A stretch of 64,000 bases of DNA from Prostheceraeus crozeri (taxonomy: Eukaryota; Platyhelminthes; Polycladida; Euryleptidae), in contig CAJQUW010000932.1 in NCBI GenBank assembly GCA_907163375.1, positions 248,001 to 312,000 of the forward strand. Direction: 5' to 3'. The notes below the pieces were generated by a model, which was not told the DNA's origin, searched no databases, and saw only the letters and a program-made list of their open reading frames with translations. Position 1 is the first letter of the stretch. Every line of letters begins with the position of its first letter. Made by a program: the position numbers and the translations under genes. Shown piece by piece: positions 21,096 to 54,122 of the stretch.

Positions 21096-21138
21096 ATTAG
21101 TCACCGAATTTAGGAGGAAAGCGTTATTAGCTCTACGA

Positions 21139-23190: not shown

Positions 23191-23355
23191 TAGTGCTGTT
23201 TTCGGAACTAGATTTCATTTTCGAAATTGAAATTATAAAAATTAAAGAATGAGCTTTCGAAATCGAAATTTTGATGAAATTTCGATTTCGAAAATTAAAT
23301 TGGTGCATTTCGAAGACGTTTTCGAAATCGAAATCGAATTTCGAAAACAGCACTA
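23191..23355. mobile_element. 165-bp hAT MITE with exact 8-bp duplication
   Basis: Terminal repeats TAGTGCTGTTTTCG and CGAAAACAGCACTA bound the unit. GTCAACAG is present at 23183-23190 and again at 23356-23363. The interior is built of AAATTTCGATTTCGAAAAT-like inverted pieces and can fold back on itself. It is non-coding and depends on a transposase from elsewhere. Confidence 0.88.
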
Positions 23356-24855
23356 GTCAACAGCATTAGCCTTAGATCGAAATCGTAGGTCCTTTATCAG
23401 AAGTTTCACGCCTGAGATTAAGCGCTCCACAAACGCTTGCGTCGCAGGCATCATGGAGAGATGCTAATATGTATTGATTTCAAGATATCCGGGCACCAGG
23501 ATAATATCTTTGATGTAACCTTAAGTCCGTAAGTATGATCGATCGAGGCGAAGGAAGCTTGTCTGATAAATTACCGAATGAAAAGACAATCCTTTTTTCA
23601 TTATCACGATTCATTCCTTCGACAACGTGTATTATCAGCTTTCCACTGTTGTCTCTGTATTTATGTTTCACGGAGAAATTTGACATGAAGACCGTGAAAG
23701 TTATACACGAGGATAAATAATTATCACAATAAATAAAAGTGACAATGATTTTGTCAGCGTTACGCTTATATTCTATTGAGTATTTTCAAGATACACATAC
23801 GACTGGCAATGCCTTAAGCAACCAATTGATTACACAATAGCTATAAGGTGTAAAAATCTAGAATACTCAAAGTTTATAGCGATAGATATGAGCATCATCA
23901 GGGAAATCATGTAAGGAGGTTGAACAGAGTCTGTCTGGGCATTTAGGGATGGCTTTTGCATCTGAATATGAAGTATGCACTTTATAGATCTTGAGATAAT
24001 ATGCAGATGACTTTTGTATAGCACTCAAATGCCACTTAGCCGCACTGTGTCATAATGTACCTAAATGCGATGGTGACCAATAGCGAACTTTTCAGCAAGT
24101 ACAGTAATATGAGCAATTATAAAAATTAGTGTTTATTTTTAGTAACAAAAGAGTCACTCATTAATAGGATTTTGAAGCATGTCTTTAAATGCTTTTTAAA
24201 CATGCTTTTTGCGCTTTTGTGTCTAGTGCATATTTTGTATTCCGACGTCACGCATCACTTCTTCCCAATTGAACTGACCATCAAAATGAATTCGCAACCT
24301 CAAAAGTTGCTTTAATGTGCTAAATAGTGGGTGCGCAATGTCGATTACATGCTATTCGGATGTTTACTGATTCACTTGCTTGCATCACACTACCTAGATT
24401 TTTTGGCAGTAACTCAATATCTTCGAAATACATGTATTCTAGACCTTCGCATTGGCCTCTCTAACAAACCACAGATAGAAGAATGATTAATTGAGTTGTC
24501 TGAATCTGCTCTCCTGTGAATAAAAATCAAGGCAGAAATATCAAGAAAATCAATGTCATAACTTACTCATTACTTAAGGATCTAAGTTAGGATTTGGACG
24601 CGCTTGACATAGCTGCAACCTCAATATGGTGCATTTCAAAAGTACGCTTGAAGGTTTAAAAGCATGTTTTGGTAGCATGGCACGAAATATCATGGTTCGA
24701 AAATCATCTTTAAAAAACAATGTACAAAGGAATGCTGAAATCCATACTTCAAAAATCTTTTGTAAAGGCAGTTTTAGATCTTCTTTTGTCCCTTTGACAG
24801 AACAACTATTCAATTCGGTGTAGAAGCATGATCTCATTCAGAAAAAATACAGCAT

Positions 24856-25175
24856 ATGGTATTTCGGACTAGCCAACAAATTCGAAGAGAGCTCGGAGTG
24901 GCCAGCATCAACAATAAGGAAAGAGCAACACGCTTGAGATGGCAAGGACACCTCATGCGGATGGAAAGCGACAATTCGGTTAAGGATGTGGTGAAGGAAA
25001 TGGAAGTGAAAGGAAATCGATCGGTGCAGGCGATGATGCGGTAATATCTAGCAAGATATGATCAAAATTGGATTCGAGGAGAGAGTTGCCTACGACAGAA
25101 GACGTTGGAAAAGCATGGCAGGCCACGACCGGGCTAACCAGTTGACACAGGAGGAAGAAGAAGACGACAACATAT
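24856..25175 (+). pseudogene. LINE (non-LTR retrotransposon) 3'-end remnant
   Basis: The frame from 24856 reads IRRELGVASINNKER and TRLRWQGHLMRME, the run typical of the C-terminal end of LINE reverse transcriptase proteins in invertebrates. A stop follows at 25042, and pieces of the expected downstream run, including a GGAGGAAGAAGAAGA tail, follow to about 25170. It is 5'-truncated and decayed. Confidence 0.55.
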
Positions 25176-25629
25176 GGTATAAATGTTTTGCGTTTAGCAT
25201 TAGGTAATGAACAATTGAATGAATGTGCGACAAGCTACAGTAAAAGTCATCTACATAGCAGTCAAGAAGCACTTAATATAATTATGCGTGTTAATAAAAT
25301 CTCAAATTCGATGTTTGCTTGCTTGGTTACACCTGTTTTTTGTCTCATGCAATTTAAAAATGAAAAAAATAAAATAACTGTATAACTAATTAATATAACA
25401 TTATAAATTATAAAGCTGATATAATAAATATAAAAACAAAGACATGCTTTTAACCAAAACATTGCGCTTCTTTTTTGCCATCATTGTGCGATGTGCCAGA
25501 CAACACAGCAGTAGCATTCACTTCTGAGATACAAAATGAAGTGCGAGTATAATGACAAGTTTAAGATACCTGTTAAATTGTGGATAGGCACCGTACATGA
25601 AAGCACCCAGGGAAATCATCACTTTACAA

Positions 25630-25635
25630 GTCGCT
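25630..25635. repeat. Target site duplication, left (element B)
   Basis: GTCGCT lies directly before AGTAGTTAGATTTT. The identical hexamer follows the other end of the palindrome at 42587. Confidence 0.9.
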
Positions 25636-26169
25636 AGTAGTTAGATTTTCCCACTTGAGGCACACCCGGTTCTTGATTTGTCCCTCTGCTCTATTTGAAG
25701 CACAGCGGTTCGGATTTTGGCCCTATTTTAAGCACAGCGGTTCGGATTTTGGCCCTTTTGAGGCGCAGCGGTCCGGATTTTGGCCCTTTTGAGTCGCGGA
25801 AGATCGTATGTGTCCTGTTTGAGTCCACTAGGATCGTGTTTTGACCTCTTTAGGTGTAGTAGGATAAGGATTTGGCCGGAAGGTTGTGGATGGAAGGTCG
25901 GAAAGGATGTTGGGAGGCGGCCGAGTATGTGATGGTAAGCAGACCAAAGGAGAGACCGGTGCAGGGCGGAAAGTTGGAGAGAAGGCGGTAGGAGAGAGTG
26001 GAGTTGGAAAGACAGTCCGGTGCAGGTAGGAGAGAGAAGCTGACAAGCAGAGTTTATCCAAAGTGGGTCATGTTTTGAGGCATGTCGTGCAGAAGTGGAC
26101 GTGTTTTATCCACGGTGTGCCAAATTTTGACTGCAAGAGGAAGGAAGGAGGAGTTCTCCTGTGAGGCAA

Positions 26170-27000
26170 GGGTAGGAATCTCTGAAAACCACCAGAGTTA
26201 GAAAAGGTGGGTTTTGATGGTTTTGGGATGAGAAAGGTCGTTTTTCCGCATGAAGGAGTGCTCGGTTGGGAAAACGGAGGCCAGATTCGGAATCTACGTG
26301 AAATGTTGGGTTTGGAAGGATGTTTCCAGCGACATCGGAGAGAAAAGTTTTGAGGACGTCCCCCTCCCCCCCCTCCTGCCAAATTTCCAACTTTGGTGTT
26401 AGAGATCCTACAAAGTCGTGTGATAGCTCATTTGAAAGCTAAGAGTGAGAAAAATGCAGTGGAAAGCTCAGTTTGGTCCACTTTTCCAGGGTTTAGAGAG
26501 AAAAATGGCCGGAAAGTCAGAGTTGAAAAAGTCAGGTTTTGGATGTTTTGAGATGAAAAAAGTCGTTTTTCGACATGAAGGAGGTCTCGGAGGGGAAAAC
26601 GGAGTGCAAATTCGGAGTCTACGTGAAATTTTGGGTCTAGAACCTTCTTCCCAACTCAATCGGAGAGAAAGAGTTCTGACCCCCCCCCCCTCGGCAGCGA
26701 TCTTCAAACTTTGGTTGTAGAGATCGTAGAAAGTCGTGCAATAGCTCGTTTGAAAGCTAAGAGTGAGACAAATTTAGTAAAAAAAACACGTCTTGTTCCT
26801 ATCTGCCTTCGTTTAGAGGTGAGACGTCATTGAAAATTTTTCCATATTTTTCCGAAAAACGATAAGTTAGAATTTTTACGATGGCTGTGGGCTGTAGAGC
26901 CAAAACGAAGCATCGGATGGGAAAATGGAGGGCAGATTCGGATTCAGCGTCAAATTCTACATGATAACAGTGAATTTCCAGCTCAATCGGAGTACTAAAG
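26170..27000 (+). repeat. Subterminal tandem repeats, left arm (period about 322 bp)
   Basis: Two and a half copies of a unit with GATGAGAAAGGTCGTTTTTC, then GAAAACGGAG..AATTCGGA, then a poly-C run before TCGGCAGCGAT, then CAACTTTGGT. Any open frames here are repeat artefacts. The same unit family occurs at the left end of element C. Confidence 0.75.
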
Positions 27001-27066
27001 CTGGAGATAGACGGGTTTTAAGTTTTTGGATGATGGGTATTACGTCATCAGCTGATCGCCACAAAC

Positions 27067-27074
27067 TATATAAG
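27067..27074 (+). promoter_or_regulatory. TATA-box candidate, left arm of B
   Basis: TATATAAG in a GC-richer context, followed by a leader that runs into GGGGTAG|GTGAAC, a possible splice donor. It points into the element. No coding exon follows directly, so it may drive a spliced transcript of the inward genes. Confidence 0.35.
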
Positions 27075-27239
27075 TGGAAACTCTGCTTGTGGAAATCAGT
27101 TCTCCTCCCGACTGGGTTGGGGTAGGTGAACTCCGGAGCTCCGATGATAGCATTGGAAATCTGAAAAACCGGGTTTCTGTAAGAAACCGACTTAGAAAAT
27201 TTCATTGCTGAACTCAGCTAAGGCGTCAGACTTAGAGGT

Positions 27240-29449
27240 TCGCCAGGAGATTGCCTTCGTCTCCAGGCCATAAAAGACTCCAAAACTTTAAAGGCTTGTA
27301 ACTTTGCTTCTACAAGTCCGTTTGACTTGATTCAAAAAAGGTTCGGTCGCTATTGACCTTCCCTAAGTGATAAACTACTTATAAAATTTCATAAGTAGTG
27401 CTAAAAAGTTGAAAATTTAAATTCACTAGTTTTGGAGGTTTTCTGGGGTTTTCGACTCTGCTGAAGTCAATGCAAGGATTTTTAATGATGTCTGAGCCAG
27501 TCTTCTCATGCTACAAGCAGCTTTTCACTGAAAGCGAGCAAGACACGGAGAGTTTTGCTGTAATATTCCACTGACAGGGTGTTCCTTCGGGACGGCGGAC
27601 AATGCCGTAGTGATAAGTGTGGCAAGGGAATGTGTCATATTTTAGACCGAGACCGAAACCGCTGGGGCAGCTCATGTCTCATGTTGGGCATTTGACACAG
27701 TTCTCAACGTAACACTTTGAACGCCAATCGGTTGAGTCTTAGCTATCTTGTCATGGGTAGCCTCTAAACATCTCCATTGCAAAACGCTTGTGAAGTTGCT
27801 ATCCCTCTCTACGGCTTGCTATCAAGCTGACCAAAGTCTGCCAAACTCTTACCAACTCCACCGTTTTTCATGTCTGGCGATCAAGTCATGGACGGTGCAA
27901 GTCACGGAGATTTTCGATGTGATACTTCCTGTGGGTGGGCGTTCTTTCGAGACAGCGGTGAAGTCCGTAGCGATGAGTACTGCACGGGACGTGGGCAATG
28001 ATAATCCTTGTGAAACCTCTCTGCGTCATGTTTCCAAGTGGTTGCCTTTCGTCTCAACGTTGTACTCTGACCGCCAGGGCGACATTTAGCTATCTGCCAC
28101 AGGTTACCTCATAAAATCTCCATTGCACTTGTCTCCCGATAGTTGGCCAACCATGGGAGAATGAACCATAAGTTCTTTTAAGAACTGTATCACGGAGACG
28201 AAATGATGAATGGAATGAAACGGGAGGCCACCCTTGCACCACATGCAGCACATCACAGACTTCTCTCTTTGCTAGTGAACAAGCTCTTGTCATACGAATG
28301 AAAAGTCGTGTTAGATGACTGTTTACTGCAATAAAGTTAAAAGTAACGTATTGGCATGAAGAATAAATCGGTGTTTCGTAAATGAGTACACTCCAAACTC
28401 CAACGTGCTTCGTTGTAGGAATGTTAGCCAACGTTAAATTCATGAACGTTAAAGTAAAACTCAGAATGCAACATCAACTTGTTGCGTTTTTATGACATTA
28501 CCAACGTTGAATGTTGGAGATGAAGAGTCAACATTCGATGCAGACAACAGTGAATCAACTAGAATAAATCAAACCTGCTCATCACGTTTCATAAACGCTA
28601 GGTGTGATCATGTGAAGACTTAATTTAAGACTCATACGTATGTGGGGGATGCAACATTCAGATTGAAAAAGTAGAAACGTTTTGATGGTTTGCAATCACG
28701 AAACGTGAATGCACAAACACTGTTTCGTCAATCAGTACCGTCTGTGTTAGAAAAGTGTATTGAAAGATTTAATTTGACTCATGTGAAATTTGTAAACATC
28801 AAGGTTGTTAGAGTTAAACACTAATATCCGCGGTGTAAGAGACCAAGGGTTCAATGCACTGCGTTACTTTCATGTAGATCATGATAGTGCTAGCGCAGTA
28901 TTCCAGAATAATGTATCGAAATAACAGAATCAAATGTGCAAGATGAAGCGTCTCATTCTAAACTAAGCGTGCTTTGGAAATCAATACTTGTATAGTATCG
29001 AAATGACAGCATCAAATGTGTAAATTGAAACGTGCATGGGGTTAGTTGTTTCATTCTAAACTAAATGTGCGTTGCAAATCAAAACTTGTATTGATAGAAT
29101 CAACATTGAAGCATGCATCATTTCAAACTATGTTACTGGAAGTCAACGTTAAGTGAATGTAGACGATAAATTCGATTATTGTACACTGCAGCCCTATGAC
29201 TTCAGTCGGTTACTAAACCGATGCGGTTACTTCTAAACCAAATGTCTCCCTGATAAAAAATCAACTCCATTACTATAGGATCACTGAATGCTTCAGTGTT
29301 CAACACATTTGCACTCACGAATGCAGTGAGAGAACTCAGAATGGTTTGGTCGCTTATATTCATGTCAGGTTGGATGTCATAGGTCTTGAAGAAAGTAGCA
29401 AGCGCAGATGTGAGTTTCAGGCAATGATAGAGTGAGGTAGTGTGGAAAC
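27240..29449. other. Non-coding leader region, left arm of B
   Basis: It holds a block of about 250-350 bp present twice in diverged form (near 27543-27795 and 27905-28135). The first copy contains TGTTCCTTCGGGACGGCG, and the same block occurs in the 5' intron of the polymerase gene of element C (63220-63400). From 28450 on, short repeated motifs such as ATCAAATGTG recur. No protein-coding gene is supported. Mirror copy at 39019-41290. Confidence 0.5.
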
Positions 29450-29872
29450 ATGTCTTATGCAGTTGAGTTTGACAATGAGTTCTGCTCCCTGCGCTTTCAT
29501 CGACAAAGTCTTCGAGGTAAAGTGCGCGACTACATCATTTCTTTTCACAATGAGTGTGCCGACTTAGGGCTTGCAATTGGAAAGGGATACTTAGTGTTTC
29601 AACAGCTGATGGAAAACATGAAAGACAAGTATGTGAATGGGCGTCCCGTGGCAGAAATCGAATTTGAGAAAACAAAAGGTGAATGCATTGGTGAACGTGA
29701 GTGTTTTCACTTTGTATCATATTCTGCAGAGTGTATATATGATCCGGATGATTTCTATCAGCGGCACATGGCAAAGGTTGCCTCGCGTTTGGAAACATTT
29801 CATGAACATGGTTCAAACTTGCTACTATGTCGCATCAAACATATACATATTCAACTGAATGTGCTTGATTGA
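29450..29872 (+). CDS. Stand-alone homologue of the polymerase N-terminal domain (left arm)
   Basis: Intact 140-residue protein. It begins SYAVEFDNEFCSLRFHRQSL, has a helical middle (VFQQLMENM), a strand with VAEIEFEK, then FHFVSYSAE, DPDDFYQRHMAKVASRL and EHGSNLLLCRIKHIHIQL. The same run of features appears inside the polymerase of element C after its zinc fingers (ERLVRDYE..., ERDSGLVFDGIEKVDIKI), so I read it as a free-standing copy of that polymerase domain. Function is unknown; partner binding or DNA binding at replication are guesses. Related copies lie at 52215, 54857 and 63655. The ATG context and intact frame in both arms support a real gene. Confidence 0.65.
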   Translation: MSYAVEFDNEFCSLRFHRQSLRGKVRDYIISFHNECADLGLAIGKGYLVFQQLMENMKDKYVNGRPVAEIEFEKTKGECIGERECFHFVSYSAECIYDPDDFYQRHMAKVASRLETFHEHGSNLLLCRIKHIHIQLNVLD

Positions 29873-30470
29873 GTTATTGAACTGCATAACTCTATCACAA
29901 ATCATGAAGTCAGGATATAAGCCATGCTCTGTCATTGGTTTCGTTAACTAATCGTGCTTATAACTAAACGTTGGTTGTCATTCTTCAGAGGTACATGTTC
30001 GGACATGATACTGCGGATACATGTGAGACACGAATTCTCTACATTTTATACCTTCATTCATCATGCTGGATTGGTAGTGTATCTGGAGACTAACACATGC
30101 ATTATGACCACACTAAGCTGAAATGATCTTTGACATGACTGCATGTCTCGTAGAAGACATCTCATTTGCTGAACACCATTGCATTTTGTATGAGGAAGTT
30201 ACCTACAGCGTAAAATATCATCCGAAGTGCATTGTAGCCTCCATGTACATGGACCCTTTCCTTTTTAATCGTCAACAGTGAATTTGTGAATGTTGCGCTG
30301 CTAGACAATTCAATAGTTGTTCATTGTAACATTAGTTTCGAAAGATGCCGTTTGTATTGAAGCACTTTATGTTCAATGTAAACGGGCATTCAGACTCTCC
30401 TACGTTGAATACAATTTAAGTAGAACATGCTTGTTTTCTCTATCTGAATTTATAGTGAAACTTAACAGCG

Positions 30471-30665
30471 ATGGCCAATGTGGATGATTTAGATAATGTC
30501 AAATCCGGCTTTCAACAACCATGTATTGACAAATTAACAATAACTGCGCATTGGCTCGTGATATACAAACCTTCAGCGGATTGTTTGTGGATTCAGTTTT
30601 GTGATGCTTTACGATCAACAGTTGTATGTAAGCAATTCCTTAGAGTTACAATCGCTGCAATGTAA
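30471..30665 (+). CDS. Small protein of unknown function (left arm)
   Basis: ATG in a good context (GCGATGG), 64 residues, starting MANVDDLDNVKSGFQQP, with an AATAAA signal 26 bases after the stop (30691). It could be a full small gene or the last exon of a spliced one. No family is recognised. The mirror copy at 37803 is unchanged at protein level. Confidence 0.35.
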   Translation: MANVDDLDNVKSGFQQPCIDKLTITAHWLVIYKPSADCLWIQFCDALRSTVVCKQFLRVTIAAM

Positions 30666-30791
30666 AATCTAAGGTATATAGAATGTAGGCAATAAATACT
30701 TAAGTAACAGCCATTCACTCTAAATCAATGTTTAGATCGCTTTCATGATTAAACCATGTCTTAACCAACGAAGTGTTATAAGGGTTGGATC

Positions 30792-31007
30792 ATGGCTTAT
30801 GGAATGGCTACAATTACATCTGTAAATGTTTTATTCAACTATGAATCGAAAGTGTGTCAACCAAATACATATATATCAATTGGGTCTAGAAGTGCGTTTT
30901 ACTGTTTCGTAGCAACACTATCTCACCCAAAACAAGATAGGTCATCATCCCTTGTTGGAGGCATCAAATATCAGTTGAGGCGCATGAGGCCCATTTATGT
31001 TAAATGA
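30792..31007 (+). CDS. Small protein of unknown function (left arm)
   Basis: 71 residues, starting MAYGMATITSVNVLF, with a basic C-terminus (YQLRRMRPIYVK). The start lies 14 bases after TATAAG. It is not recognised and could be an exon of a longer gene. The mirror copy differs by two residues. Confidence 0.3.
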   Translation: MAYGMATITSVNVLFNYESKVCQPNTYISIGSRSAFYCFVATLSHPKQDRSSSLVGGIKYQLRRMRPIYVK

Positions 31008-31083
31008 AAAAAGACACATTCTTCAAATCGATGTTATTGAATCGCAGTTACATTAATATACACGTTTTCACGAGGAAGATTAT

Positions 31084-31368
31084 ATGCAGGAAATAAAGTT
31101 CACACAAATCACTACACAAGTTTTCAAGAGGAGCATGTACATTCAGACGCAATGTCACCAAAGTGCGGGAGATGTGCGGTGGTATCACTGTAGAATTGAT
31201 GTACACTTAGAAAATATTGTCACCACAATGCTGGATTTGAGAACACGAATGCACAACAAAGCAATGGTACTGTACATGCAGATTGAGACGCAGTGCGATG
31301 CAGTGATGATAAACGTGTCACATCAATCACAATTTAAATCGGCAATAGGAATGTGTCTTGTAAAATAG
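31084..31368 (+). CDS. Small protein of unknown function (left arm)
   Basis: 94 residues, starting MQEIKFTQITTQVFKRS, rich in His, Met and Gln, with no recognisable domain. An AATAAA lies about 20 bases after the stop (31388), shared with the 3' end of the polymerase gene coming from the other side. The gene is thus convergent with the polymerase. Confidence 0.35.
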   Translation: MQEIKFTQITTQVFKRSMYIQTQCHQSAGDVRWYHCRIDVHLENIVTTMLDLRTRMHNKAMVLYMQIETQCDAVMINVSHQSQFKSAIGMCLVK

Positions 31369-31406
31369 TTCAAAAAGCACAAACGTCAATAAATAGCGTG
31401 AACGGT

Positions 31407-34267
31407 TCATATATCATCGCAAGATGGAGGAAGAGAAAGTTTTCGTTTTTTAGGTGGTGGAAGATATGTGTCCGGATGTCCATGAGGGAGTGAGTGGTTG
31501 GGACTCAACCAACAACGTTTGTTCTCCCACGCGCTGAGAGCACGCTTTCTAAATGTGCACGTTTGAATTTGATGGTTGGTTGATTTTATTATTGTCATAT
31601 CGACGTAGCTATCCATTTTATCTTGGTATGCTTAAAATTTTTCACAAGGGAACGTGAAATACCTTTGGCACGTTTGATGGAGTCAGAGGTGTCCCTTTAT
31701 TTCATCGAATACATTTTAGGCCTTAGCAATATCATTTCTTCTAGAGGACTCCCACCACATTCATCTTTAAAGCATCCGAGTTTTGCCTTGTTCTTAATTG
31801 AGTAAAGTGGATGTGTTGATGGATAATTGGAACTATCAAATTTATTTTCAAAATGTTTAAGGATGTCATTTTCTGGAATTTGCTGTTTCACTGTGACGGC
31901 TAGGAAAAAGCTATCGGTATCACCACCAACTAGCTCAACGCGATGGAAAATTGGACAAGGTCTCAGTGTTTTATAAAATAACTTAAACATTTCCAATTTA
32001 GAGTGGTCGAGAACGGCTTGTCCGATGAAGATGGGCTTACACAGCATCACACTCGACTTAAATAATTTGAAGCCTGTGACATCCTCACTTATGAGGTCAT
32101 GCATCAAGTAAAGTGGTCTGTCTACTTTAAAAATTTTATTTTTTTAAAAAATTTTGTCTACTTTTTCTGGATCCGACACTAGCTTATAATCCATACGTTT
32201 GCGAACGTCTTCCATGGTCTTGCCAAATAATGAATTATTCTTAAATTTGAAATAATCTTTTTCAAATGGTTTTTTGGAGGCAGCACGCTTCTTACTATTA
32301 AAATCAATGTAGGGTTTCAGAAAGCACTTTTGTGTGAATTGTATGGCTCGATGAACTTTAGCTAGTTGCATGCCCATGTCAAGATAGAATTTTAGAATGC
32401 TGTAATGAACAATGTAGTTGCTCTTGTCATACTGTGTTAGCAAAAGTTTGCGACATGGTTTATATTTTCGGCTGCATTGCTGTTCTATTTTCCTATTGTA
32501 TTCTTCCATATAAGGAGAAAACATATCTTCGGTTACATAACCCGATTCGGGTGCTAGTGGTAGGTCAGATGTTTCATCTTTTATATCATCTGGGTAGACG
32601 AGATCAACTTCAAATAAGTAACCTACGTCTCCCTCATCATCCAGTTCCAAAATGTGTTGTGGGTTTGAAAAATGTTTTATTTCATCTTCACTAATCCGTT
32701 TGAAATTTGAATGTGGAAGCTGCTTTGATAGCGCACTGCCATATAAATTGTTCTGGTCAATGTACTTCAGATATGTGCTATGAATGCCATCCGAAACATA
32801 GTTGACTTATGTTTATTGACAAGAGTCAGACCACCTCTTATTCCACGTTCAAATAAGTTGTACATTTCGGAATCTTGCAAGAGGTGGATCGTTTCACCGG
32901 TCATTTTGAATGCTGATATATAGGACATGGCTGGTAAACTTATAAAATGCACCGGATCTAAAGCATCTTGTGCCAGTGTCATTTGACGGAAGGCTTCAAA
33001 CACGTCAGCTAGAAGGTATACATCCAACTTTAAGTAAGCTATCATAAAGTCATTGAATGTGTGACAATCAAACTTTTGCCATGCCAATTTGGCATATTCA
33101 TGATCCACGATGCTACATGCCTCACCCGTTAAGTCATTAGTGAATTTATCAATTGATGGAAGGGCACTTTCCTTTAAAGTGTCCATAGAAGTGAAATAAC
33201 TATATGGAAATACTCCTTTCCGACGAATGAGAGTGTCGCTGATGTTTGGATAGTCTTTTATCATATTCTGTGTGAGTGGAAGTTGGTCTAAATTATTGGC
33301 CAAGACTGCCAGAGAAGTCGACATGAATTGATAACTGTCCATAAACTTAATTTCAAAGAAAACCGGCTTCACCTCAGCCGTTTTATCAACATGAGCTTTA
33401 GCCGACATTGACATAAACTTCTCCCGACTTTGTGCAATGACATTCACTGTCCACGATTTTATTTTACCTATCCCATTCCGAATGAGAATATGTGCATCAT
33501 AAGACTTAAAATTGTGAAAAATGACGGCGAGCGATCGACTTTTGAGTCTCATACTGATGTTACATTTATTACACAGTGCTGATCTGAACTTGCCGCTAAG
33601 GTGGCAGTGGTCTCTGACTTTCCTATGTTGTTCATCATCGAAGTTAGTCTTGCATTTGGGACATGTCATGCACTGATCAAATTTAAGCCTATCTTGCTCA
33701 GTGAAGCACATGGGCTTCTTCGTTAGATCAATTTCATAACGTTGGTGGAAACGCGCTTTTCCATCTAAATAGTTTAGGAATTCTAATGTACAGTCTTTAC
33801 CTTGCCATACATGCATCTTATTTAGATTTTTGTAGTAGGGATGCCGAACTTCATAGCATGCAATGGCAGCGGCCCCGTGGTTTTTGGTATCGGGATCAAC
33901 ATAGCACTCTATGTCTGCGTAAATTACGCAAATAGGACTCAATTCGCTTCCACAAGGTTTGTACATAAAATTGTTTTGTCTTTTGGCATCACTTCCATTT
34001 GGAGTTTGCCACGTGAGCACCACTCATAATGTTGGTCAAATAATGACTTTGATGTAAAGTGTCGTATGCAGCGATTGCAATAAATTATTTTGTCGCTCTT
34101 GTATGATTGCAGATGTGAGTACAATCTCTTTATACTTGGAATTCCACAATAATGCCATTATGGTTGGTTTTCATCATACACAAGGAGCACATTGACAACT
34201 TTCTCATAGGTGCTGGCACGATCACTCTAACGCACTCCTTTCAATCCACTATGCCAGAGATGAACTA
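31407..34267 (-). pseudogene. Family B DNA polymerase, 5'-truncated and broken (left arm)
   Basis: The gene begins inside the coding sequence at the palindrome centre, so the start codon, zinc fingers and N-terminal domain are missing. From the centre outward it shows the Cys/His block CNRCIRHFTS, exonuclease motifs ADIECYV, FHNFKSYDAH and YLKLDVYLLADVF, then polymerase motifs YIDQNNLYGSAL, NNSLFGKTMEDV and GGDTDSFFLA. The conserved tail LSAWENKRCWLSPNHSLP ends it. Breaks shared with the other arm: a frameshift near 33990, one near 32780, and an in-frame stop near 31697. The AT-rich rearrangement at 32125-32155 is private to this arm. It cannot make a polymerase. Confidence 0.85.
34225..34267 (-). 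other. 43-bp unpaired spacer at the palindrome centre
   Basis: This is the only single-copy part of element B. Read on the minus strand it continues the left-arm polymerase frame, giving HLWHSGLKGVR and then a TAG. Element C has HLWEKGLKGVR at the same place in its polymerase. The spacer therefore belongs to the original gene and marks the turning point where copying switched strand. Confidence 0.8.
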
Positions 34268-37082
34268 TGATCGTGCCAGCACCTATGAGAAAGTTGTCAA
34301 TGTGCTCCTTGTGTATGATGAAAATCAACCACAGTGGCATTATTGTGGAATTCCAAGTATAAAGAGATTGTACTCACATCTGCAATCATACAAGAGCGAC
34401 AAAATAATTTATTGCAATCGCTGCATACGGCACTTTACATCAAAGTCATTATTTGACCAACATTATGAGTGGTGCTCACGTGGCAAACTCCAAATGGAAG
34501 TGATGCCAAAAGACAAAACAATTTTATGTACAAACCTTGTGGAAGCGAATTGAGTCCTATTTGCGTAATTTACGCAGACATAGAGTGCTATATTGATCCC
34601 GATACCAAAAACCACGGGGCCGCTGCCATTGCATGCTATGAAGTTTGGCATCCCTACTACAAAAATCTAAATAAGATGCATGTATGGCAAGGTAAAGACT
34701 GTACATTAGAATTCCTAAACTATTTAGATGGAAAAGCGCGTTCCCACCAACGTTATGAAATTGATCTAACGAAGAAGCCCATGTGCTTCACTGAGCAAGA
34801 TAGGCTTAAATTTGATCAGTGCATGACATGTCCCAAATGCAAGACTAACTTCGATGATGAACAACATAGGAAAGTCAGAGACCACTGCCACCTTAGCGGC
34901 AAGTTCAGATCAGCACTGTGTAATAAATGTAACATCAGTATGAGACTCAAAAGTCGATCGCTCGCCGTCATTTTTCACAATTTTAAGTCTTATGATGCAC
35001 ATATTCTCATTCGGAATGGGATAGGTAAAATAAAATCGTGGACAGTGAATGTCATTGCACAAAGTCGGGAGAAGTTTATGTCAATGTCGGCTAAAGCTCA
35101 TGTTGATAAAACGGCTGAGGTGAAGCCGGTTTTCTTTGAAATTAAGTTTATGGACAGTTATCAATTCATGTCGACTTCTCTGGCAGTCTTGGCCAATAAT
35201 TTAGACCAACTTCCACTCACACAGAATATGATAAAAGACTATCCAAACATCAGCGACACTCTCATTCGTCGGAAAGGAGTATTTCCATATAGTTATTTCA
35301 CTTCTATGGACACTTTAAAGGAAAGTGCCCTTCCATCAATTGATAAATTCACTAATGACTTAACGGGTGAGGCATGTAGCATCGTGGATCATGAATATGC
35401 CAAATTGGCATGGCAAAAGTTTGATTGTCACACATTCAATGACTTTATGATAGCTTATTTAAAGTTGGATGCATACCTTCTAGCTGACGTGTTTGAAGCC
35501 TTCCGTCAAATGACACTGGCACAAGATGCTTTAGATCCGGTGCATTTTATAAGTTTACCAGCCATGTCCTATATATCAGCATTCAAAATGACCGGTGAAA
35601 CGATCCACCTCTTGCAAGATTCCGAAATGTACAACTTATTTGAACGTGGAATAAGAGGTGGTCTGACTCTTGTCAATAAACATAAGTCAACTATGTTTCG
35701 GATGGCATTCATAGCACATATCTGAAGTACATTGACCAGAACAATTTATATGGCAGTGCGCTATCAAAGCAGCTTCCACATTCAAATTTCAAACGGATTA
35801 GTGAAGATGAAATAAAACATTTTTCAAACCCATAACACATTTTGGAACTGGATGATGAGGGAGACGTAGGTTACTTATTTGAAGTTGATCTCGTCTACCC
35901 AGATGATATAAAAGATGAAACATCTGACCTACCACTAGCACCCGAATCGGGTTATGTAACCGAAGATATGTTTTCTCCTTATATGGAAGAATACAATAGG
36001 AAAATAGAACAGCAATGCAGCCGAAAATATAAACCATGTCGCAAACTTTTGCTAACACAGTATGACAAGAGCAACTACATTGTTCATTACAGCATTCTAA
36101 AATTCTATCTTGACATGGGCATGCAACTAGCTAAAGTTCATCGAGCCATACAATTCACACAAAAGTGCTTTCTGAAACCCTACATTGATTTTAATAGTAA
36201 GAAGCGTGCTGCCTCCAAAAACCCATTTGAAAAAGATTATTTCAAATTTAAGAATAATTCATTATTTGGCAAGACCATGGAAGACGTTCGCAAACGTATG
36301 GATTATAAGCTAGTGTCGGATCCAGAAAAAGTAGACAAAATTATCAAGTCACCACTTTACTTGATGCATGACCTCATAAGTGAGGATGTCACAGGCTTCA
36401 AATTATTTAAGTCGAGTGTGGTGCTGTGTAAGCCCATCTTCATCGGACAAGCCGTTCTCGACCACTCTAAATTGGAAATGTTTAAGTTATTTTATAAAAC
36501 ACTGAGACCTTGTCCAATTTTCCATCGCGTTGAGCTAGTTGGTGGTGATACCGATAGCTTTTTCCTAGCCGTCACAGTGAAACAGCAAATTCCAGAAAAT
36601 GACATCCTTAAACATTTTGAAAATAAATTTGATAGTTCCAATTATCCATCAACACATCCACTTTACTCAATTAAGAACAAGGCAAAACTCGGATGCTTTA
36701 AAGATGAATGTGGTGGGAGTTCACTAGAAGAAATGATATTGCTAAGGCCTAAAATGTATTCGATGAAATAAAGGGACACCTCTGACTCCATCAAACGTGC
36801 CAAAGGTATTTCACGTTCCCTTGTGAAAAATTTTAAGCATACCAAGATAAAATGGATAGCTACGTCGATATGACAATAATAAAATCAACCAACCATCAAA
36901 TTCAAACGTGCACATTTAGAAAGCGTGCTCTCAGCGCGTGGGAGAACAAACGTTGTTGGTTGAGTCCCAACCACTCACTCCCTCATGGACATCCGGACAC
37001 ATATCTTCCACCACCTAAAAAACGAAAACTTTCTCTTCCTCCATCTTGCGATGATATACGAACCGTTCACGCTATTTATTGA
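34268..37082 (+). pseudogene. Family B DNA polymerase, 5'-truncated and broken (right arm)
   Basis: Mirror copy of the left-arm remnant, joined to it head to head across the 43-bp spacer. It has the same shared breaks (frameshifts near 34520 and 35715, in-frame TAA at 36769) but lacks the left arm's private rearrangement, so the stretch 35842-36771 is open. Motif C (GGDTDSF) is near 36541. The stop at the very end also differs from the left arm: this copy runs seven codons further. Confidence 0.85.
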
Positions 37083-37099
37083 CGTTTGTGCTTTTTGAA

Positions 37100-37384
37100 C
37101 TATTTTACAAGACACATTCCTATTGCCGATTTAAATTGTGATTGATGTGACACGTTTATCATCACTGCATCGCACTGCGTCTCAATCTGCATGTACAGTA
37201 CCATTGCTTTGTTGTGCATTCGTGTTCTCAAATCCAGCATTGTGGTGACAATATTTTCTAAGTGTACATCAATTCTACAGTGATACCACCGCACATCTCC
37301 CGCACTTTGGTGACATTGCGTCTGAGTGTACATGCTCCTCTTGAAAACTTGTGTAGTGATTTGTGTGAACTTTATTTCCTGCAT
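37100..37384 (-). CDS. Small protein of unknown function (right arm)
   Basis: Mirror copy of 31084-31368, one residue different (MYTQ for MYIQ). Convergent with the right-arm polymerase remnant. Confidence 0.35.
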   Translation of the reverse strand: MQEIKFTQITTQVFKRSMYTQTQCHQSAGDVRWYHCRIDVHLENIVTTMLDLRTRMHNKAMVLYMQIETQCDAVMINVSHQSQFKSAIGMCLVK

Positions 37385-37460
37385 ATAATCTTCCTCGTGA
37401 AAACGTGTATATTAATGTAGCTGCGATTCAATAACATCGATTTGAACAATGTGTCTTTTT

Positions 37461-37676
37461 TCATTTAACATAAATGGGCCTCATGCGCCTCAACTGATAT
37501 TTGATGCCTCCAACAAGGGATGATGACCAATCTTGTTTTGGGTGAGATAGTGTTGTTACGAAACAGTAAAACGCACTTCTAGACCCAATTGATATATATG
37601 TATTTGGTTGACACACTTTCGATTCATAGTTGAATAAAACATTTACAGATGTAATTGTAGCCATTCCATAAGCCAT
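37461..37676 (-). CDS. Small protein of unknown function (right arm)
   Basis: Mirror copy of 30792-31007 with two substitutions (VTT for VAT, DWS for DRS). The frame is preserved. Confidence 0.3.
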   Translation of the reverse strand: MAYGMATITSVNVLFNYESKVCQPNTYISIGSRSAFYCFVTTLSHPKQDWSSSLVGGIKYQLRRMRPIYVK

Positions 37677-37802
37677 GATCCAACCCTTATAACACTTCGT
37701 TGGTTAAGACATGGTTTAATCATGAAAGCGATCTAAACATTGATTTAGAGTGAATGGCTGTTACTTAAGTATTTATTGCCTACATTCTATATACCTTAGA
37801 TT

Positions 37803-37997
37803 TTACATTGCAGCGATTGTAACTCTAAGGAATTGCTTACATACAACTGTTGATCGTAAAGCATCACAAAACTGAATCCACAAACAATCCGCTGAAGGTT
37901 TGTATATCACGAGCCAATGCGCAGTTATTGTTAATTTGTCAATACATGGTTGTTGAAAGCCGGATTTGACATTATCTAAATCATCCACATTGGCCAT
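37803..37997 (-). CDS. Small protein of unknown function (right arm)
   Basis: Mirror copy of 30471-30665, identical as protein as far as I can see, with the same polyadenylation signal downstream. Confidence 0.35.
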   Translation of the reverse strand: MANVDDLDNVKSGFQQPCIDKLTITAHWLVIYKPSADCLWIQFCDALRSTVVCKQFLRVTIAAM

Positions 37998-38595
37998 CGC
38001 TGTTAAGTTTCACTATAAATTCAGATAGAGAAAACAAGCATGTTCTACTTAAATTTTATTCAACGTAGGAGAGTCTGAATGCCCGTTTACATTGAACATA
38101 AAGTGCTTCAATACAAACGGCATCTTTCGAAACTAATGTTACAATGAACAACTATTGAATTGTCTAGCAGCGCAACATTCACAAATTCACTGTTGACGAT
38201 TAAAAAGGAAAGGGTCCATGTACATGGAGGCTACAATGCACTTCGGATGATATTTTACGCTGTAGGTAACTTCCTCATACAAAATGCAATGGTGTTCAGC
38301 AAATGAGATGTCTTCTACGAGACATGCAGTCATGTCAAAGATCATTTCAGCTTAGTGTGGTCATAATGCATGTGTTAGTCTCCAGATACACTACCAATCC
38401 AGCATGATGAATGAAGGTATAAAATGTAGAGAATTCGTGTCTCACATGTATCCGCAGTATCATGTCCGAACATGTACCTCTGAAGAATGACAACCAACGT
38501 TTAGTTATAAGCACGATTAGTTAACGAAACCAATGACAGAGCATGGCTTATATCCTGACTTCATGATTTGTGATAGAGTTATGCAGTTCAATAAC

Positions 38596-39018
38596 TCAAT
38601 CAAGCACATTCAGTTGAATATGTATATGTTTGATGTGACATAGTAGCAAGTTTGAACCATGTTCATGAAATGTTTCCAAACGCGAGGCAACCTTTGCCAT
38701 GTGCCGCTGATAGAAATCATCCGGATCATATATACACTCTGCAGAATATGATACAAAGTGAAAACACTCACGTTCACCAATGCATTCACCTTTCGTTTTC
38801 TCAAATTCGATTTCTGCCACGGGACGCCCATTCACATACTTGTCTTTCATGTTTTCCATCAGCTGTTGAAACACTAAGTATCCCTTTCCAATTGCAAGCC
38901 CTAAGTCGGCACACTCATTGTGAAAAGAAATGATGTAGTCGCGCACTTTACCTCGAAGACTTTGTCGATGAAAGCGCAAGGAGCAGAACTCATTGTCAAA
39001 CTCAACTGCATAAGACAT
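38596..39018 (-). CDS. Stand-alone polymerase-N-domain homologue (right arm)
   Basis: Mirror copy of the gene at 29450, also 140 residues and intact, differing by one or two residues (LLLCHIKH here, LLLCRIKH there). Having two intact copies in inverted orientation follows from the palindrome. See the left-arm entry for the family. Confidence 0.65.
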   Translation of the reverse strand: MSYAVEFDNEFCSLRFHRQSLRGKVRDYIISFHNECADLGLAIGKGYLVFQQLMENMKDKYVNGRPVAEIEFEKTKGECIGERECFHFVSYSAECIYDPDDFYQRHMAKVASRLETFHEHGSNLLLCHIKHIHIQLNVLD

Positions 39019-41290
39019 GTTTCCACACTACCTCACTCTATCATTGCCTGAAACTCACATCTGCGCTTGCTACTTTCTTCAAGACCTATGACATCCAACC
39101 TGACATGAATATAAGCGACCAAACCATTCTGAGTTCTCTCACTGCATTCGTGAGTGCAAATGTGTTGAACACTGAAGCATTCCGTGATCCTATAGTAATG
39201 GAGTTCATTTTTTATCAGGGAGACATTTGGTTTAGAAGTAACCGCATCGGTTTAGTAACCGACTGAAGTCATAGGGCTGCAGTGTACAATAATCGAATTT
39301 ATCGTCTACATTCACTTAACGTTGACTTCCAGTAACATAGTTTGAAATGATGCATGCTTCAATGTTGATTCTATCAATGCAAGTTTTGATTTGCAACGCA
39401 CATTTAGTTTAGAATGAAACAACTAACCCCATGCACGTTTCAATTTACACATTTGATGCTGTCATTTCGATACTATACAAGTATTGATTTCCAAAGCACG
39501 CTTAGTTTAGAATGAGACGCTTCAGCTTGCACATTTGATTCTGTTATTTCGATACATTATTCTGGAATACTGCGCTAGCACTATCATGATCTACATGAAA
39601 GCTTCACCAACATAAAATTCATTGTCACTGCTGGTAACGCAGTGCATTGAACCCTTGGTCTCTTACACCGCGGATATTAGTGTTTAACTCTAACAACCTT
39701 GATGTTTACAAATTTCACATGAGTCAAATTAAATCTTTCAATACACTTTTCTAACACAGACGGTACTGATTGACGAAACAGTGTTTGTGCATTCACGTTT
39801 CGTGATTGCAAACCATCAAAACGTTTCTACTTTTTCAATCTGAATGTTGCATCCCCCACATACGTATGAGTCTTAAATTAAGTCTTCACATGATCACACC
39901 TAGCGTTTATGAAACGTGATAAGCAGGTTTGATTTATTCTAGTTGATTCACTGTTGTCTGCATCGAATGTTGACTCTTCATCTCCAACATTCAACGTTGG
40001 TAATGTCATAAAAACGCAACAAGTTGATGTTGCATTCTGAGTTTTACTTTAACGTTCATGAATTTAACGTTGGCTAACATTCCTACAACGAAGCACGTTG
40101 GAGTTTGGAGTGTACTCATTTACGAAACACCGATTTATTCTTCATGCCAATACGTTACTTTTAACTTTATTGCAGTAAACAGTCATCTAACACGACTTTT
40201 CATTCGTATGACAAGAGCTTGTTCACTAGCAAAGAGAGAAGTCTGTGATGTGCTGCATGTGGTGCAAGGGTGGCCTCCCGTTTCATTCCATTCATCATTT
40301 CGTCTCCGTGATACAGTTCTTAAAAGAACTTATGGTTCATTCTCCCATGGTTGGCCAACTATCGGGAGACAAGTGCAATGGAGATTTTATGAGGTAATCT
40401 GTGGCAGATAGCTAAATGTCGCCCTGGCGGTCAGAGTACAACGTTAAGACGAAAGGCAACCACTTGGAAACATGACGCAGAGAGGTTTCACAAGGATTAC
40501 CATTGCCCACGTCCCGTGCAGTACTCATCGCTACGGACTTCACCGCTGTCTCGAAAGAACGCCCACCCACAGGAAGTATCACATCGAAAATCTCCGTGAC
40601 TTGCACCGTCCATGACTTGATCGCCAGACATATAAAACGGTGGAGTTGGTAAGAGTTTGGCAGACTTTGGTCAGCTTGATAGCAAGCCGTAGAGAGGGAT
40701 AGCAACTTCACAAGCGTTTTGCAATGGAGATGTTTAGAGGCCACCCATGACAAGATAGCTAAGACTCAACCGATTGGCGTTCAAAGTGTTACGTTGAGAA
40801 CTGTGTCAAATGCCCAACATGAGACATGAGCTGCCCCAGCGGTTTCGGTCTCGGTCTAAAATATGACACATTCCCTTGCCACACTTATCACTACGGCATT
40901 GTCCGCCGTCCCGAAGGAACACCCTGTCAGTGGAATATTACAGCAAAACTCTCCGTGTCTTGCTCGCTTTCAGTGAAAAGCTGCTTGTAACATGAGAAGA
41001 TTGGCTCAGACATCATTAAAAATCCTTGCATTGACTTCAGCAGAGTCGAAAACCCCAGAAAACCTCCAAAACTAGTGAATTTAAATTTTCAACTTTTTAG
41101 CACTACTTATGAAATTTTATAAGTAGTTTATCACTTAGGGAAGGTCAATAGCGACCGAACCTTTTTTGAATCAAGTCAAACGGACTTGTAGAAGCAAAGT
41201 TACAAGCCTTTAAAGTTTTGGAGTCTTTTATGGCCTGGAGACGAAGGCAATCTCCTGGCGAACCTCTAAGTCTGACGCCTTAGCTGAGTT
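39019..41290. other. Non-coding leader region, right arm of B
   Basis: Inverted copy of 27240-29449, with about 40 extra bases near 39602-39641. It holds the same conserved CGTCCCGAAGGAACA block and no supported gene. Confidence 0.5.
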
Positions 41291-41427
41291 CAGCAATGAA
41301 ATTTTCTAAGTCGGTTTCTTACAGAAACCCGGTTTTTCAGATTTCCAATGCTATCATCGGAGCTCCGGAGTTCACCTACCCCAACCCAATCGGGAGGAGA
41401 ACTGATTTCCACAAGCAGAGTTTCCAC

Positions 41428-41435
41428 TTATATAG
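41428..41435 (-). promoter_or_regulatory. TATA-box candidate, right arm of B
   Basis: Mirror copy of the candidate at 27067, preserved in the other arm and pointing inward. Confidence 0.35.
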
Positions 41436-41469
41436 TTTGTGGCGATCAGCTGATGACGTAATACCCATC

Positions 41470-42170
41470 ACGTTTTTCGGAAAAATATTGAAAAATTTTC
41501 AATGACGTCTCACCTCTAAACGAAGGCAGATAGGAACAAGACGTGTTTTTTTACTAAATTTGTCTCACTCTTAGCTTTCAAACGAGCTATTGCACGACTT
41601 TCTACGATCTCTACAACCAAAGTTTGAAGATCGCTGCCGAGGGGGGGGTCAGAACTCTTTCTCTCCGATTGAGTTGGGAAGAAGGTTCTAGACCCAAAAT
41701 TTCACGTAGACTCCGAATTTGCACTCCGTTTTCCCATCCGATGTCTCCTTTATGTCGAAAAACGACTTTTTTCATCTCAAAACATCCAAAACCTGACTTT
41801 TTCAACTCTGACTTTCCGTCCATTTTTCTCTCTAAACCCTGGAAAAGTGGACCAAACTGAGCTTTCCACTGCATTTTTCTCACTCTTAGCTTTCAAATGA
41901 GCTATCACACGACTTTGTAGGATCTCTAACACCAGAGTTGGAAGTTTGGCAGGAGGGGGGGGGAGGGGGACGTCCTCAAAACTTTTCTCTCCGATGTCGC
42001 TGGAAACATCCTTCCATACCCAACATTTCACGTAGATTCCGAATCTGGCCTCCGTTTTCCCAACCGAGCACTCCTTCATGCGGAAAAACGACCTTTCTCA
42101 TCCCAAAACCATCAAAACCCACCTTTTCTAACTCTGGTGGTTTTCAGAGATTCCTACCCTTGCCTCACAG
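41470..42170 (-). repeat. Subterminal tandem repeats, right arm
   Basis: Mirror copy of 26170-27000 with about 190 bp missing between the last repeat and the TATA-containing stretch. Non-coding. Confidence 0.75.
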
Positions 42171-42586
42171 GAGAACTCCTCCTTCCTTCCTCTTGCAGTC
42201 AAAATTTGGCACACCGTGGATAAAACACGTCCACTTCTGCACGACATGCCTCAAAACATGACCCACTTTGGATAAACTCTGCTTGTCAGCTTCTCTCTCC
42301 TACCTGCACCGGACTGTCTTTCCAACTCCACTCTCTCCTACCGACTTCTGTCCAACTTTCCGCCCTGCACCGGTCTCTCCTTTGGTCTGCTTACCATCAC
42401 ATACTCGGCCGCCTCCCGACATCCTTTCCGACCTTCCATCCAGCTTCCGGCCGCTGCGCCTCAAAAGGGCCAAAATCCGAACCGCTGTGCTTCAAATAGG
42501 GCCAAAATCCGAACCGCTGTGCTTCAAATAGAGAAGAGGGACAAATCAAGAACCGCTGTGCCTCAAGTGGGAAAAATCTAACTACT

Positions 42587-42592
42587 GTCGCT
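42587..42592. repeat. Target site duplication, right (element B)
   Basis: GTCGCT follows the terminal AAAATCTAACTACT and equals 25630-25635. It shows that the whole palindrome was inserted as one piece. Confidence 0.9.
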
Positions 42593-43975
42593 TTCTTGTA
42601 ATACTACTGGTTCTTTAAAACGTCATGCTTTAGGTCTGCTCATGATGCTGCTATTCGGAAACTCTTCCTAAACATCGGTTTGAGAGTGATATCAACCAAG
42701 GGGATTGATATAAAATATTATTAAGGGTTTAAACATTATACATTATACAGACAATTATTATGGAGCAAAGCAATTAATGAAGGATTCTTTAGAATGCAAA
42801 CATTTTGACCAATGTCATTGTTTCATTCCTTGTGAAGTACCTACTAAACATGGGCCACCATGGGTAGCCAATAAATGAAAGTTAATTATGAAATGTGAAT
42901 GCACTACTTTTCGCTGTGCAAATAATACTTCCCTTTGACGTTAATTGGCAAGGAAACACGGGACAACATTCTTAGTCTTCATGTGAAAAAATAGTATGAA
43001 ACAGGATAAAATTAACAAATCAATAAATGCATATCTCAATTTGACGTCAAGTTGTCAAGGAATTCATACATATGCTTTCATATGTGCTAACGCCGGTAAC
43101 GTGGAAAGGCAATGACTTTTATGAGAGTGTCTACCTGCATTCTTTCATAAGTTTAGAAATCGATTATTTTGTTGAATTTTTCCGTTTCGAACAGGAATGA
43201 GAAATGAGGAAGAAGTGTTTGTCAGGTTGCTCATTAACGTTTCCAACATAAGTACGCGAAAATTGATCTGTTATGCATGTGTTATGCTGAGGAAGGGAAG
43301 CGTTTGCGGATGTCTCCTACTTTGAAGAACATTTTCATTGATAATAGAAAATATTCCGAAACATAGATTGCCTTGAAATTTTCATTAATCCGGACCTCAC
43401 TCCAATTCAACAAAATGAAGCTGTTTGCCATAGCAATTTGATCGTCGATTTTTCGGTAGACAATATAATTGCGTTTTCCGATCCTATTAAGTATCCCATT
43501 CAGGATCTTATACTTCACACTATCAATCACTTGTATTTATTATGCTTTTCTGTATCATTCTGTATTTTCAAAGCAATATGTATTGTTAATGATTTAACTA
43601 TCTATATTTGCACTTGTAAAAATGTTAGGCTGCCACAAAATAGGCGATGGTGCACGGTTATTCATGAAGTCCCAAATGAATACTAGAAACAGCACTAAAT
43701 CTGAGTATGCTACGACTAAGATATGACTCCCAGAATCTAGTGTACTTTGAGTTCGAAAAAATTTGTCCTTATTTTAGAACTTTTTCGGTTCGAAAGCACA
43801 GTGCGTAATTCGTACTCATTATAGTACTCATTCAATAAGTTGCGTGGAATAAGTACCTCCACATATCGTAAAATGTCATACAGCGCATCTAACCCTCTAT
43901 ATCACATGTGCACATCCATCTAAGAACTGCTTTGGCAATTAAACACAAGAGCGTTTGGATCAGTAAAACACAAGA

Positions 43976-44112
43976 CTCAAAGCGCAGTCAAGGAAGATGG
44001 CAAACGTTGGCCGTACTCAAAGCACAGTCGGAGAAAATGGTAGACTTTGCCAGGACTCAAAACAACGTCTAAGAAAACATTGGCAGGACTAAAAAAGCAC
44101 AGTCGTAGAGGA
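43976..44112 (+). repeat. Degenerate tandem repeat, three to four units
   Basis: Units of 35-50 bases built on GGACTCAAAGCACAGTCG-GAGAAAATGG, repeated with many changes (CTCAAAGCGCAGTCAAGGA, CTCAAAGCACAGTCGGAGA, CTCAAAACAACGTCTAAGA). Non-coding. Confidence 0.6.
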
Positions 44113-44478
44113 TGCTTTTGATCCAAATTGATGTCTTTATTAAGAGGAAATTAACTTCACTGTCCCACGTCGATATGCAGGAACACAGCAAACCGTCATT
44201 ACCAATTGTGAGCACTCGCTACCTGGGACAGAAACGACCCGGGTGACGATTTTAGTGCAGGAATTATTAACAACTATGTTGACTAGCTGATTGGCGCCGC
44301 GATCGCTATTCATCTCACTGTCGCCATTCAGCACACCGCCGACAATGCACTCTTAACTGGAAGACTAGACAAAAACACTTATTCAGATCTTAGCGTGCGC
44401 CGTCAACTGCCAGCTGCACACTGACTCGCTGAATTTGGCCACCAGTCCTTTATTGATATTGATGTTTCCAGGGAATCT

Positions 44479-44592
44479 ATGATTAATATAAGATATCTAA
44501 GGGACGTTCAACTCCCAGAGTATGTACTAGACTGGAGCCCAGTGACTTTGGTAGACTTGATTAATGACAGTATTCTGTGCCTATTTGGATAG
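44479..44592 (+). repeat. Inverted repeat pair with a conserved 37-codon frame, copy 1
   Basis: A block of about 125 bp here is repeated in inverted orientation at 46120-46250 with about 10% difference. Both copies keep an open frame from ATG to a stop at the same place (TAG here, TAA there) with no indel. The frame includes LDWSPVTLVDLINDSILC. It may be an exon of an unknown repeat element. Confidence 0.5.
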
Positions 44593-45341
44593 AACCAGGA
44601 AACAAGTTGTAAACAATTCACTTCATCATTGTAAAATACATCAGAATCCAGCTGAATTGATTGTTGTACATACTATTTAATACGCCCGTCTCAGTCTTAC
44701 AGGGAAATTGTCGGAAGAATCTGTGCACTGTACATGTACACATACAATTAAGCATGTCATCAATGGTCAATTTCAAATAAATTGTGATTTTCTATTTTCA
44801 TTGATTTTCCCACTGTATTATCTAAAACCTCCTGACTGTATAATAATTTGGAACACTGGTGGACTTTATTTGAGAATTCAAGAGCAATGAAGCGATATGA
44901 CATGTGATTTTTTTTCCGGCCATGAATTACTCATCTTTCATTAAACGAAAATTTATGGCTATTTTTATCACAGTGATGCGTGAATGTTTTCATATTTACC
45001 GACGAAATTTATGCGGATTTCGAAATCAACTGTTCCTGAATTGTCCAATATGGTAGGACTCTAAAATCGTGGAAAGTCACCAATCACCACCGCTTGGTTT
45101 GCCTTTCATTGAATATGATCTTCGCGTTTTATGAATCAGTGACATCATAATCGCATTTTATTTGTTTTTTTGATTATAGTTTGAAGGCCTCACAGGTGAT
45201 GCTCTATAATCACCAGATGTCTAATAAGCGATAAAAATATATTGATATCGGGAACCACTCATAACGAGGAGGCGCACTCGGAAAGACAACACTATTATTA
45301 TATAAAAGTTCAGAAGTTAGTAGCTGATGTTTAGGAGTTGT

Positions 45342-45402
45342 GAACTGATAAATAATAGTCTACTAAAATTCGGTTGCATAAACGACTATTATTTATCAGT
45401 TC
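45342..45402. repeat. Perfect 19-bp hairpin
   Basis: GAACTGATAAATAATAGTC at 45342-45360 is repeated in inverted form at 45384-45402 around a 23-base loop. No flanking duplication is clear. It could be a foldback-type micro-element. Confidence 0.65.
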
Positions 45403-46119: not shown

Positions 46120-46233
46120 TTATCCAAATATGCACAGAATACTGTCATTAATCAAGTCTACCAAAGTCACTGGCCTCCAGTCCAGTATATGCTCTGGGAG
46201 TTGAATGTCCCTTAGATATCTTATAATAATCAT
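46120..46233 (-). repeat. Inverted repeat pair with a conserved 37-codon frame, copy 2
   Basis: Partner of 44479-44592 on the opposite strand, same length. The frame includes LDWRPVTLVDLINDSILC and ends in TAA. The element family is not recognised. Confidence 0.5.
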
Positions 46234-54085: not shown

Positions 54086-54122
54086 TGTATTGTCTTGTAA
54101 TGAAGTCTTTTTGATATTGTAG

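Follow-up and report, generated by a model that had tools for sequence, protein, structure and literature searches.

Protein priming is the presumed mode of replication of Polintons, which are also presumed to form virions; their free forms have proved difficult to capture. Among adenoviruses, incomplete genomes with inverted ends carry a duplicate of one end at the opposite end; these genomes are linear and protein-primed. Template switching in place, of the ODIRA type, is known from yeast chromosomes and not from mobile elements with ends of their own; it combines a short inverted repeat at the turn, a hairpin-capped intermediate and an inverted linear product. The intact vertebrate Mavericks described in PMC8097293 measure 16,862 ± 1,678 bp, and the terminal inverted repeats reported there span 46–1,447 bp, with a mean of 402. 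Snapback genomes have been described as a major class of defective adeno-associated virus (AAV) particles, each being self-complementary and built from the left or the right part of the genome together with an inverted terminal repeat, the asymmetric ones having a single-stranded loop (PMC8235507). There are laboratory strains of cytomegalovirus in which a region at the right end is reported to have given way to an inverted duplicate of the left one (PMC2885757). Among the matches listed from the open-licence literature, no palindromic Polinton or Maverick was found by title or by the start of the abstract. Mavericks have been recorded at inversion breakpoints in cod, where the structures described are of other kinds (PMC12368964).

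The window analysed here, a stretch of 64,000 nucleotides from the polyclad flatworm Prostheceraeus crozeri, contains a palindrome of 16,951 bp at positions 25636–42586, recovered by inverted alignment of its two arms. The arms, put at 8.6 and 8.3 kb in a preliminary description of the locus, are 8,589 and 8,319 bp long and are parted by a loop of 43 nt. The features are as follows, with the basis of each in brackets.

25630–25635, unstranded: target-site duplication GTCGCT, left copy (sequence)
25636–34224, plus strand: left arm, 8,589 bp, from the terminus to the PolB cut (inverted alignment)
25636–26592, unstranded: terminal stretch of 957 bp with excess divergence between the arms (15/842 vs 39/7,431 substitutions)
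26122–26962, unstranded: repeat-bearing subterminal stretch, common to 51326–52170 of the relative (sequence comparison)
29441–29872, plus strand: open frame of 143 aa (right-arm copy at about 38603–39023, minus strand)
31415–34272, minus strand: left copy of PolB, C-terminal part up to the cut, in several frames (Pfam and relative)
34220–34224, unstranded: left side of the 5-bp stem TGATC/GATCA (sequence)
34225–34267, unstranded: loop, 43 nt of PolB coding sequence with one in-frame stop (register with the relative)
34268–34272, unstranded: right side of the stem, the last bases matching the relative's PolB, 4/5 (sequence comparison)
34268–42586, minus strand: right arm, 8,319 bp, repeating the left arm in inverted form (inverted alignment)
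34268–37053, plus strand: right copy of PolB, with the same truncation and common frame breaks (arm alignment)
42587–42592, unstranded: target-site duplication GTCGCT, right copy (sequence)
51326–62310, unstranded: separate, collinear relative with a longer PolB, used for comparison only (the remainder of the element would fall outside the window)

Arms of about 8 kb rule out chance inverted similarity. The termini are equal, as had been described, both ends carrying AGTAGTTAGATTTT with one extra T at the right end, so that the unit has terminal inverted repeats with (AGT)2//(ACT)2 ends, that is, AGTAGT...ACTACT. It is framed by the 6-bp duplication GTCGCT, which occurs nowhere else in 19601–25635 and 42587–51000 (two occurrences in total); a match of six bases has a chance of 1 in 4,096. 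The host flanks (20001–25629 and 42593–51000) are not inverted copies of each other and share a single 20-nt match, with an E-value of 0.03. Rfam and tRNA searches found no match.

Assignment to the Polinton type is supported by PolB, by the 6-bp duplication and by the (AGT)2//(ACT)2 ends, which are like those of vertebrate Mavericks; the length of about 17 kb and the DNA_pol_B_2 match of PolB are further points of likeness (PMC8097293). Two more Polinton-type elements lie in the window, 6 kb to the left of the palindrome and 9 kb to its right. One of these two, at 1970–19556 (17,587 bp), retains both ends and has a terminal repeat of 0.64–0.73 kb. Read from the terminus inward, each arm of the palindrome comprises a 32-bp tandem repeat, the repeat-bearing stretch, about 2.5 kb in which the scanned frames gave no Pfam match above cut-off, the 143-aa frame, accessory-frame remnants and PolB. 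The 143-aa frame is 74% identical to the best of its ten database relatives and 73% identical to the frame at 52113–52637 of the relative element, and the accessory remnants are 35–38% identical to a portion of the frame at 54123–54686 in the relative. PolB would be a protein-primed family B polymerase: a 418-aa piece of the gene, which is truncated at the centre and broken in both arms, matches DNA_pol_B_2 (PF03175, E 9.5e-11) and has 168 relatives at E ≤ 0.001. Among the matches listed (120 of 168), the few with a named source include one each from an aphid and a scallop and one catalogued under a cyanobacterial MAG. Scans of viral contigs gave one PolB relative at 33%, on contig L001, and otherwise none; 12,826 of the 15,128 bp of L001 hold no inverted repeat of at least 40 nt.

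The left arm has 28 open frames that reach 70 aa; the Pfam scan covered 17 of them and, above curated cut-offs, returned PolB and an endonuclease-VII-like domain and nothing else. The integrase (rve) had no match in these 17 of 28 frames, a scan that very decayed remnants would escape, and the integrase piece of the other Polinton had no tblastn match in the palindrome at E 0.05. Capsid proteins, ATPase and protease were likewise missing from the same scan and from the comparison with the other Polinton's ORFs, whose pieces of at least 100 aa match the palindrome through PolB alone. With neither an integrase nor a virion gene found within the reach of these scans, the locus does not contain an entire Polinton-type element, contrary to what had been proposed: each arm is a half, made up of a terminus, accessory sequence and a PolB cut in its N-terminal part. 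The palindrome thus differs from a Polinton or Maverick in having half the gene content, doubled and inverted, with PolB truncated and broken and with no integrase or capsid gene in the scanned pieces.

PolB reads from the centre outwards in each arm, and the centre itself lies within the gene. When the loop was placed without gaps along the minus strand of 51–64 kb, the placing in register with the relative's PolB gave 28 identical positions of 43, the next best 22/43 and the mean 10.9; the idea that the loop is filler sequence was therefore ruled out. The relative's PolB, which is itself in pieces (58227–62310, minus strand) and split between frames, aligns without a gap through the left arm, the loop and the stem, with identities of 27/43 beside the loop, 4/5 in the stem and 11/58 beyond it. 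The match ends at 34272, and the reading frame continues through the loop but for one stop. Because the relative's PolB continues in register through both loop and stem, the original gene, as read from the sequence, appears to have run to 34272, where the sequence turned back and was closed by TGATC/GATCA. By position, the palindrome has no counterpart to some 400 codons that lie N-terminally in the PolB region of the relative (62310 to 61071). A short inverted repeat thus stands at the turn, as it does in ODIRA-like switching; stems of 5 bp with loops of 20–80 nt are, however, common in local DNA (682 of 523,258 placings in the arm), and the stem alone is for that reason weak evidence.

The left and right arms differ by 54 substitutions over 8,273 aligned bases, a count that leaves out 28 of 82 mismatch rows (17 in the loop and 11 beside the 107- and 24-nt gaps). 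They also differ by four larger indels (107, 169, 33 and 24 nt) and by five short ones of 1–3 nt, all of which fall in the first 1.2 kb and none beyond 26779; there is none of 1–3 nt inside the arms after 26862. The terminal 957 bp are 1.78% diverged, about three times the 0.52% of the interior (Fisher p = 0.0002, 0.004 or 0.010, counting 15, 12 or 11 events, respectively). A change-point permutation placed the best point at 26592 (p = 0.005), and at 25979 (p = 0.08) once changes within 15 nt were merged; either position may mark a second junction in the terminal repeat. A hot spot was rejected as the simple cause, as the comparable terminal part is better conserved against the relative (85.6% identical over 727 nt) than is PolB (67.8%). 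Slippage or conversion among the internal repeats of the terminal stretch is a possible source of the divergence.

Three PolB frame breaks, near 33970, 32806 and 31628, are common to both arms, and the left arm alone has 24 extra nucleotides and a further stop in the gene. Because the arms carry the same breaks and the loop has an in-frame stop, the PolB of the parent was probably broken already, unless the arms were homogenised later or the breaks are in part consensus errors. Residual errors of this kind are likely in the assembly, the frames of the other Polinton being broken at overlaps of which six of the seven examined hold a homopolymer of at least 6; the PolB of the relative, too, is split between frames. 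In the palindrome, the break near 32806 lies outside any long homopolymer and those near 33970 and 31628 are close to runs of 4–5, so that systematic consensus error behind the common breaks is only partly excluded, which weakens the argument from shared lesions for formation in place. In the 14 rows of PolB differences away from the 24-nt gap, the derived state is on the left arm in four and on the right arm in six, the remaining four being assignable to neither.

On these data the palindrome probably arose by a fold-back, at whatever time it formed. In its layout it resembles incomplete adenovirus genomes, which carry a duplicate of one end at the opposite end. As in the snapback genomes of AAV, a partial genome is inverted around a loop of original sequence, with a terminal repeat at the open end; both are self-complementary parts of a genome, and the loop corresponds to that of the asymmetric form (PMC8235507). 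They differ in that the palindrome is known as one chromosomal copy with a 6-bp duplication, and in the class of virus. The cytomegalovirus strains are comparable in overall layout, an inverted copy of one end standing in place of the opposite end (PMC2885757), with the difference that a large virus genome is concerned there and an integrated element here. The palindrome is likely to be a chromosomal, Polinton counterpart of snapback defective viral genomes.

As to timing, we favour a fold-back that preceded insertion, the palindrome being inserted as one linear molecule, and assign this reading a probability of roughly 0.45. A strand begun at the left terminus would have stopped at about 34272, inside PolB; its 3' end, TGATC, would have annealed to GATCA about 43 nt further upstream and served as the primer for copying back to the strand's own terminus; and replication from the single open end would have unfolded the hairpin to give a 17-kb duplex whose two ends are equal, and which the integrase of another copy could then have inserted as one linear molecule. 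Given the truncated PolB and the lack of an integrase match, both replication and insertion would have relied on functions supplied in trans. By analogy with snapback AAV genomes, this sequence of events would amount to a single familiar step. The total of about 17 kb, similar to that of Mavericks and of the 17,587-bp neighbour, favours the doubling of half a genome to a unit that can be packaged or replicated. The earlier proposal that the palindrome existed before insertion thus gains from the unit length of 16,951 bp and loses from the terminal divergence and from the PolB breaks common to both arms. A palindrome inserted whole predicts even divergence, and the terminal excess therefore counts against it, as do the confinement of the five short indels to the first 1.2 kb, the PolB breaks common to the arms, the stop in the loop, and the fact that only one copy of the palindrome is known.

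Several of these observations lend weight to formation in place, which we regard as possible and less probable than fold-back before insertion. According to this alternative, the site first received an ordinary Polinton, which then decayed. Host replication or repair would later have turned back at the PolB stem and copied the left half, and the original right end would have been rejoined through terminal-repeat homology, with the outer half of the element replaced and the duplication kept. The target duplication does not settle the timing, because conversion of a normal element in place leaves the same duplication. That the termini show about three times the divergence of the interior, with a change point at 26592, or at 25979 after merging, and with all short indels in the terminal 1.2 kb, is what such rejoining would leave, and the PolB breaks common to both arms and the better conservation of the comparable terminal stretch against the relative point the same way. 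The cost is that two switches are required, together with a terminal repeat of about 960 bp if the divergence is to extend to 26592, where the other Polinton of the window has 0.64–0.73 kb and vertebrate Mavericks average 402 bp, and that the total of 17 kb becomes a coincidence, which we estimate at about 1 in 10.

Fold-back chimeras occur in long-read and amplified libraries, and a chimera of this type, present in a read or created by amplification and joined to the right end by way of the terminal repeat, could have produced the palindrome in the assembly from an ordinary element at the locus. Such an artefact would fit the divergence pattern, with a true right terminus and a copied interior; the interior changes could stem from differences between haplotypes, and consensus errors are, as noted, likely. 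We nevertheless consider it unlikely, given that the interior differs by 39 substitutions and by indels of 33 and 24 nt with no indel of 1–3 nt after 26862, which is unlike read error, that derived PolB changes are found on both arms, and that the right flank is distinct host DNA with an exact duplication. Still more improbable, to the point of being hardly credible, is a chance meeting at the centre of two separate partial elements, head to head: Polinton-type elements do lie on either side, but a single target duplication frames both arms, PolB stops at the same position in each, and the loop continues the gene of one arm.

Fold-back before insertion also admits a bolder version, which we think rather unlikely, namely that the palindrome belongs to a lineage of mirror-image Polinton satellites. 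These would be integrating snapback genomes that carry only a dead PolB and the same terminus twice and depend on full Polintons for replication, packaging and insertion, their arms kept alike by folding and copying; in effect, the host chromosome would store defective interfering genomes that are inherited. Such a lineage would be expected to have the same PolB breaks in both arms and a unit of 17 kb.

If the palindrome is a chromosomal snapback genome, it would preserve, in fossil form, a linear replication intermediate that was free and protein-primed, and two equal ends would be all that the integrase needs, without an intact element. Should such elements form a lineage, defective interfering Polintons would be inherited by their hosts. 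If the palindrome was formed in place, on the other hand, it would represent a clean natural U-turn of a polymerase at a 5-bp inverted repeat, with both chromosome flanks spared.

A second Polinton, 17,587 bp in length, occupies positions 1970-19556 of the window and is flanked at both ends by an ATTGTC target duplication. The element is AT-rich (GC 23-31% in 2-kb windows), carries terminal repeats of 0.64-0.73 kb and also contains PolB, the Polinton family B DNA polymerase gene, the pieces of which share only about 28-36% identity with those of the palindrome (25636-42586). At 4853-5848, a phospholipase-A2-like domain (PF08398, E 6.6e-8) and a putative integrase core (PF00665, E 3.2e-5, under the curated cut-off) are joined within one open frame. 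In both the palindrome and its separate collinear relative at 51326-62310, PolB contains an endonuclease-VII-like domain (PF02945).

6531-7595: double-jelly-roll capsid frame, second Polinton
32767-34023: PolB stretch holding the PF02945 domain, palindrome
59891-60979: PolB stretch holding the PF02945 domain, relative element

The relative element additionally holds a TATA-binding-protein frame at 56637-57179 (PF00352, E 6.3e-21), for which 66 database relatives were found, the majority of them on short contigs; one of the 66 shares 97% identity. One published paper places TATA-binding-protein genes in elements of putative mirusvirus origin.

Within the palindrome, the gene-poor part of each arm bears degenerate direct repeats with a spacing of about 350 bp, examined in the left arm at 27538-28127. 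Five differences between the arms are clustered in 16 bases at 26577-26592, inside the repeat-bearing subterminal stretch (26122-26962) common to the relative element, a pattern suggestive of a small conversion patch.
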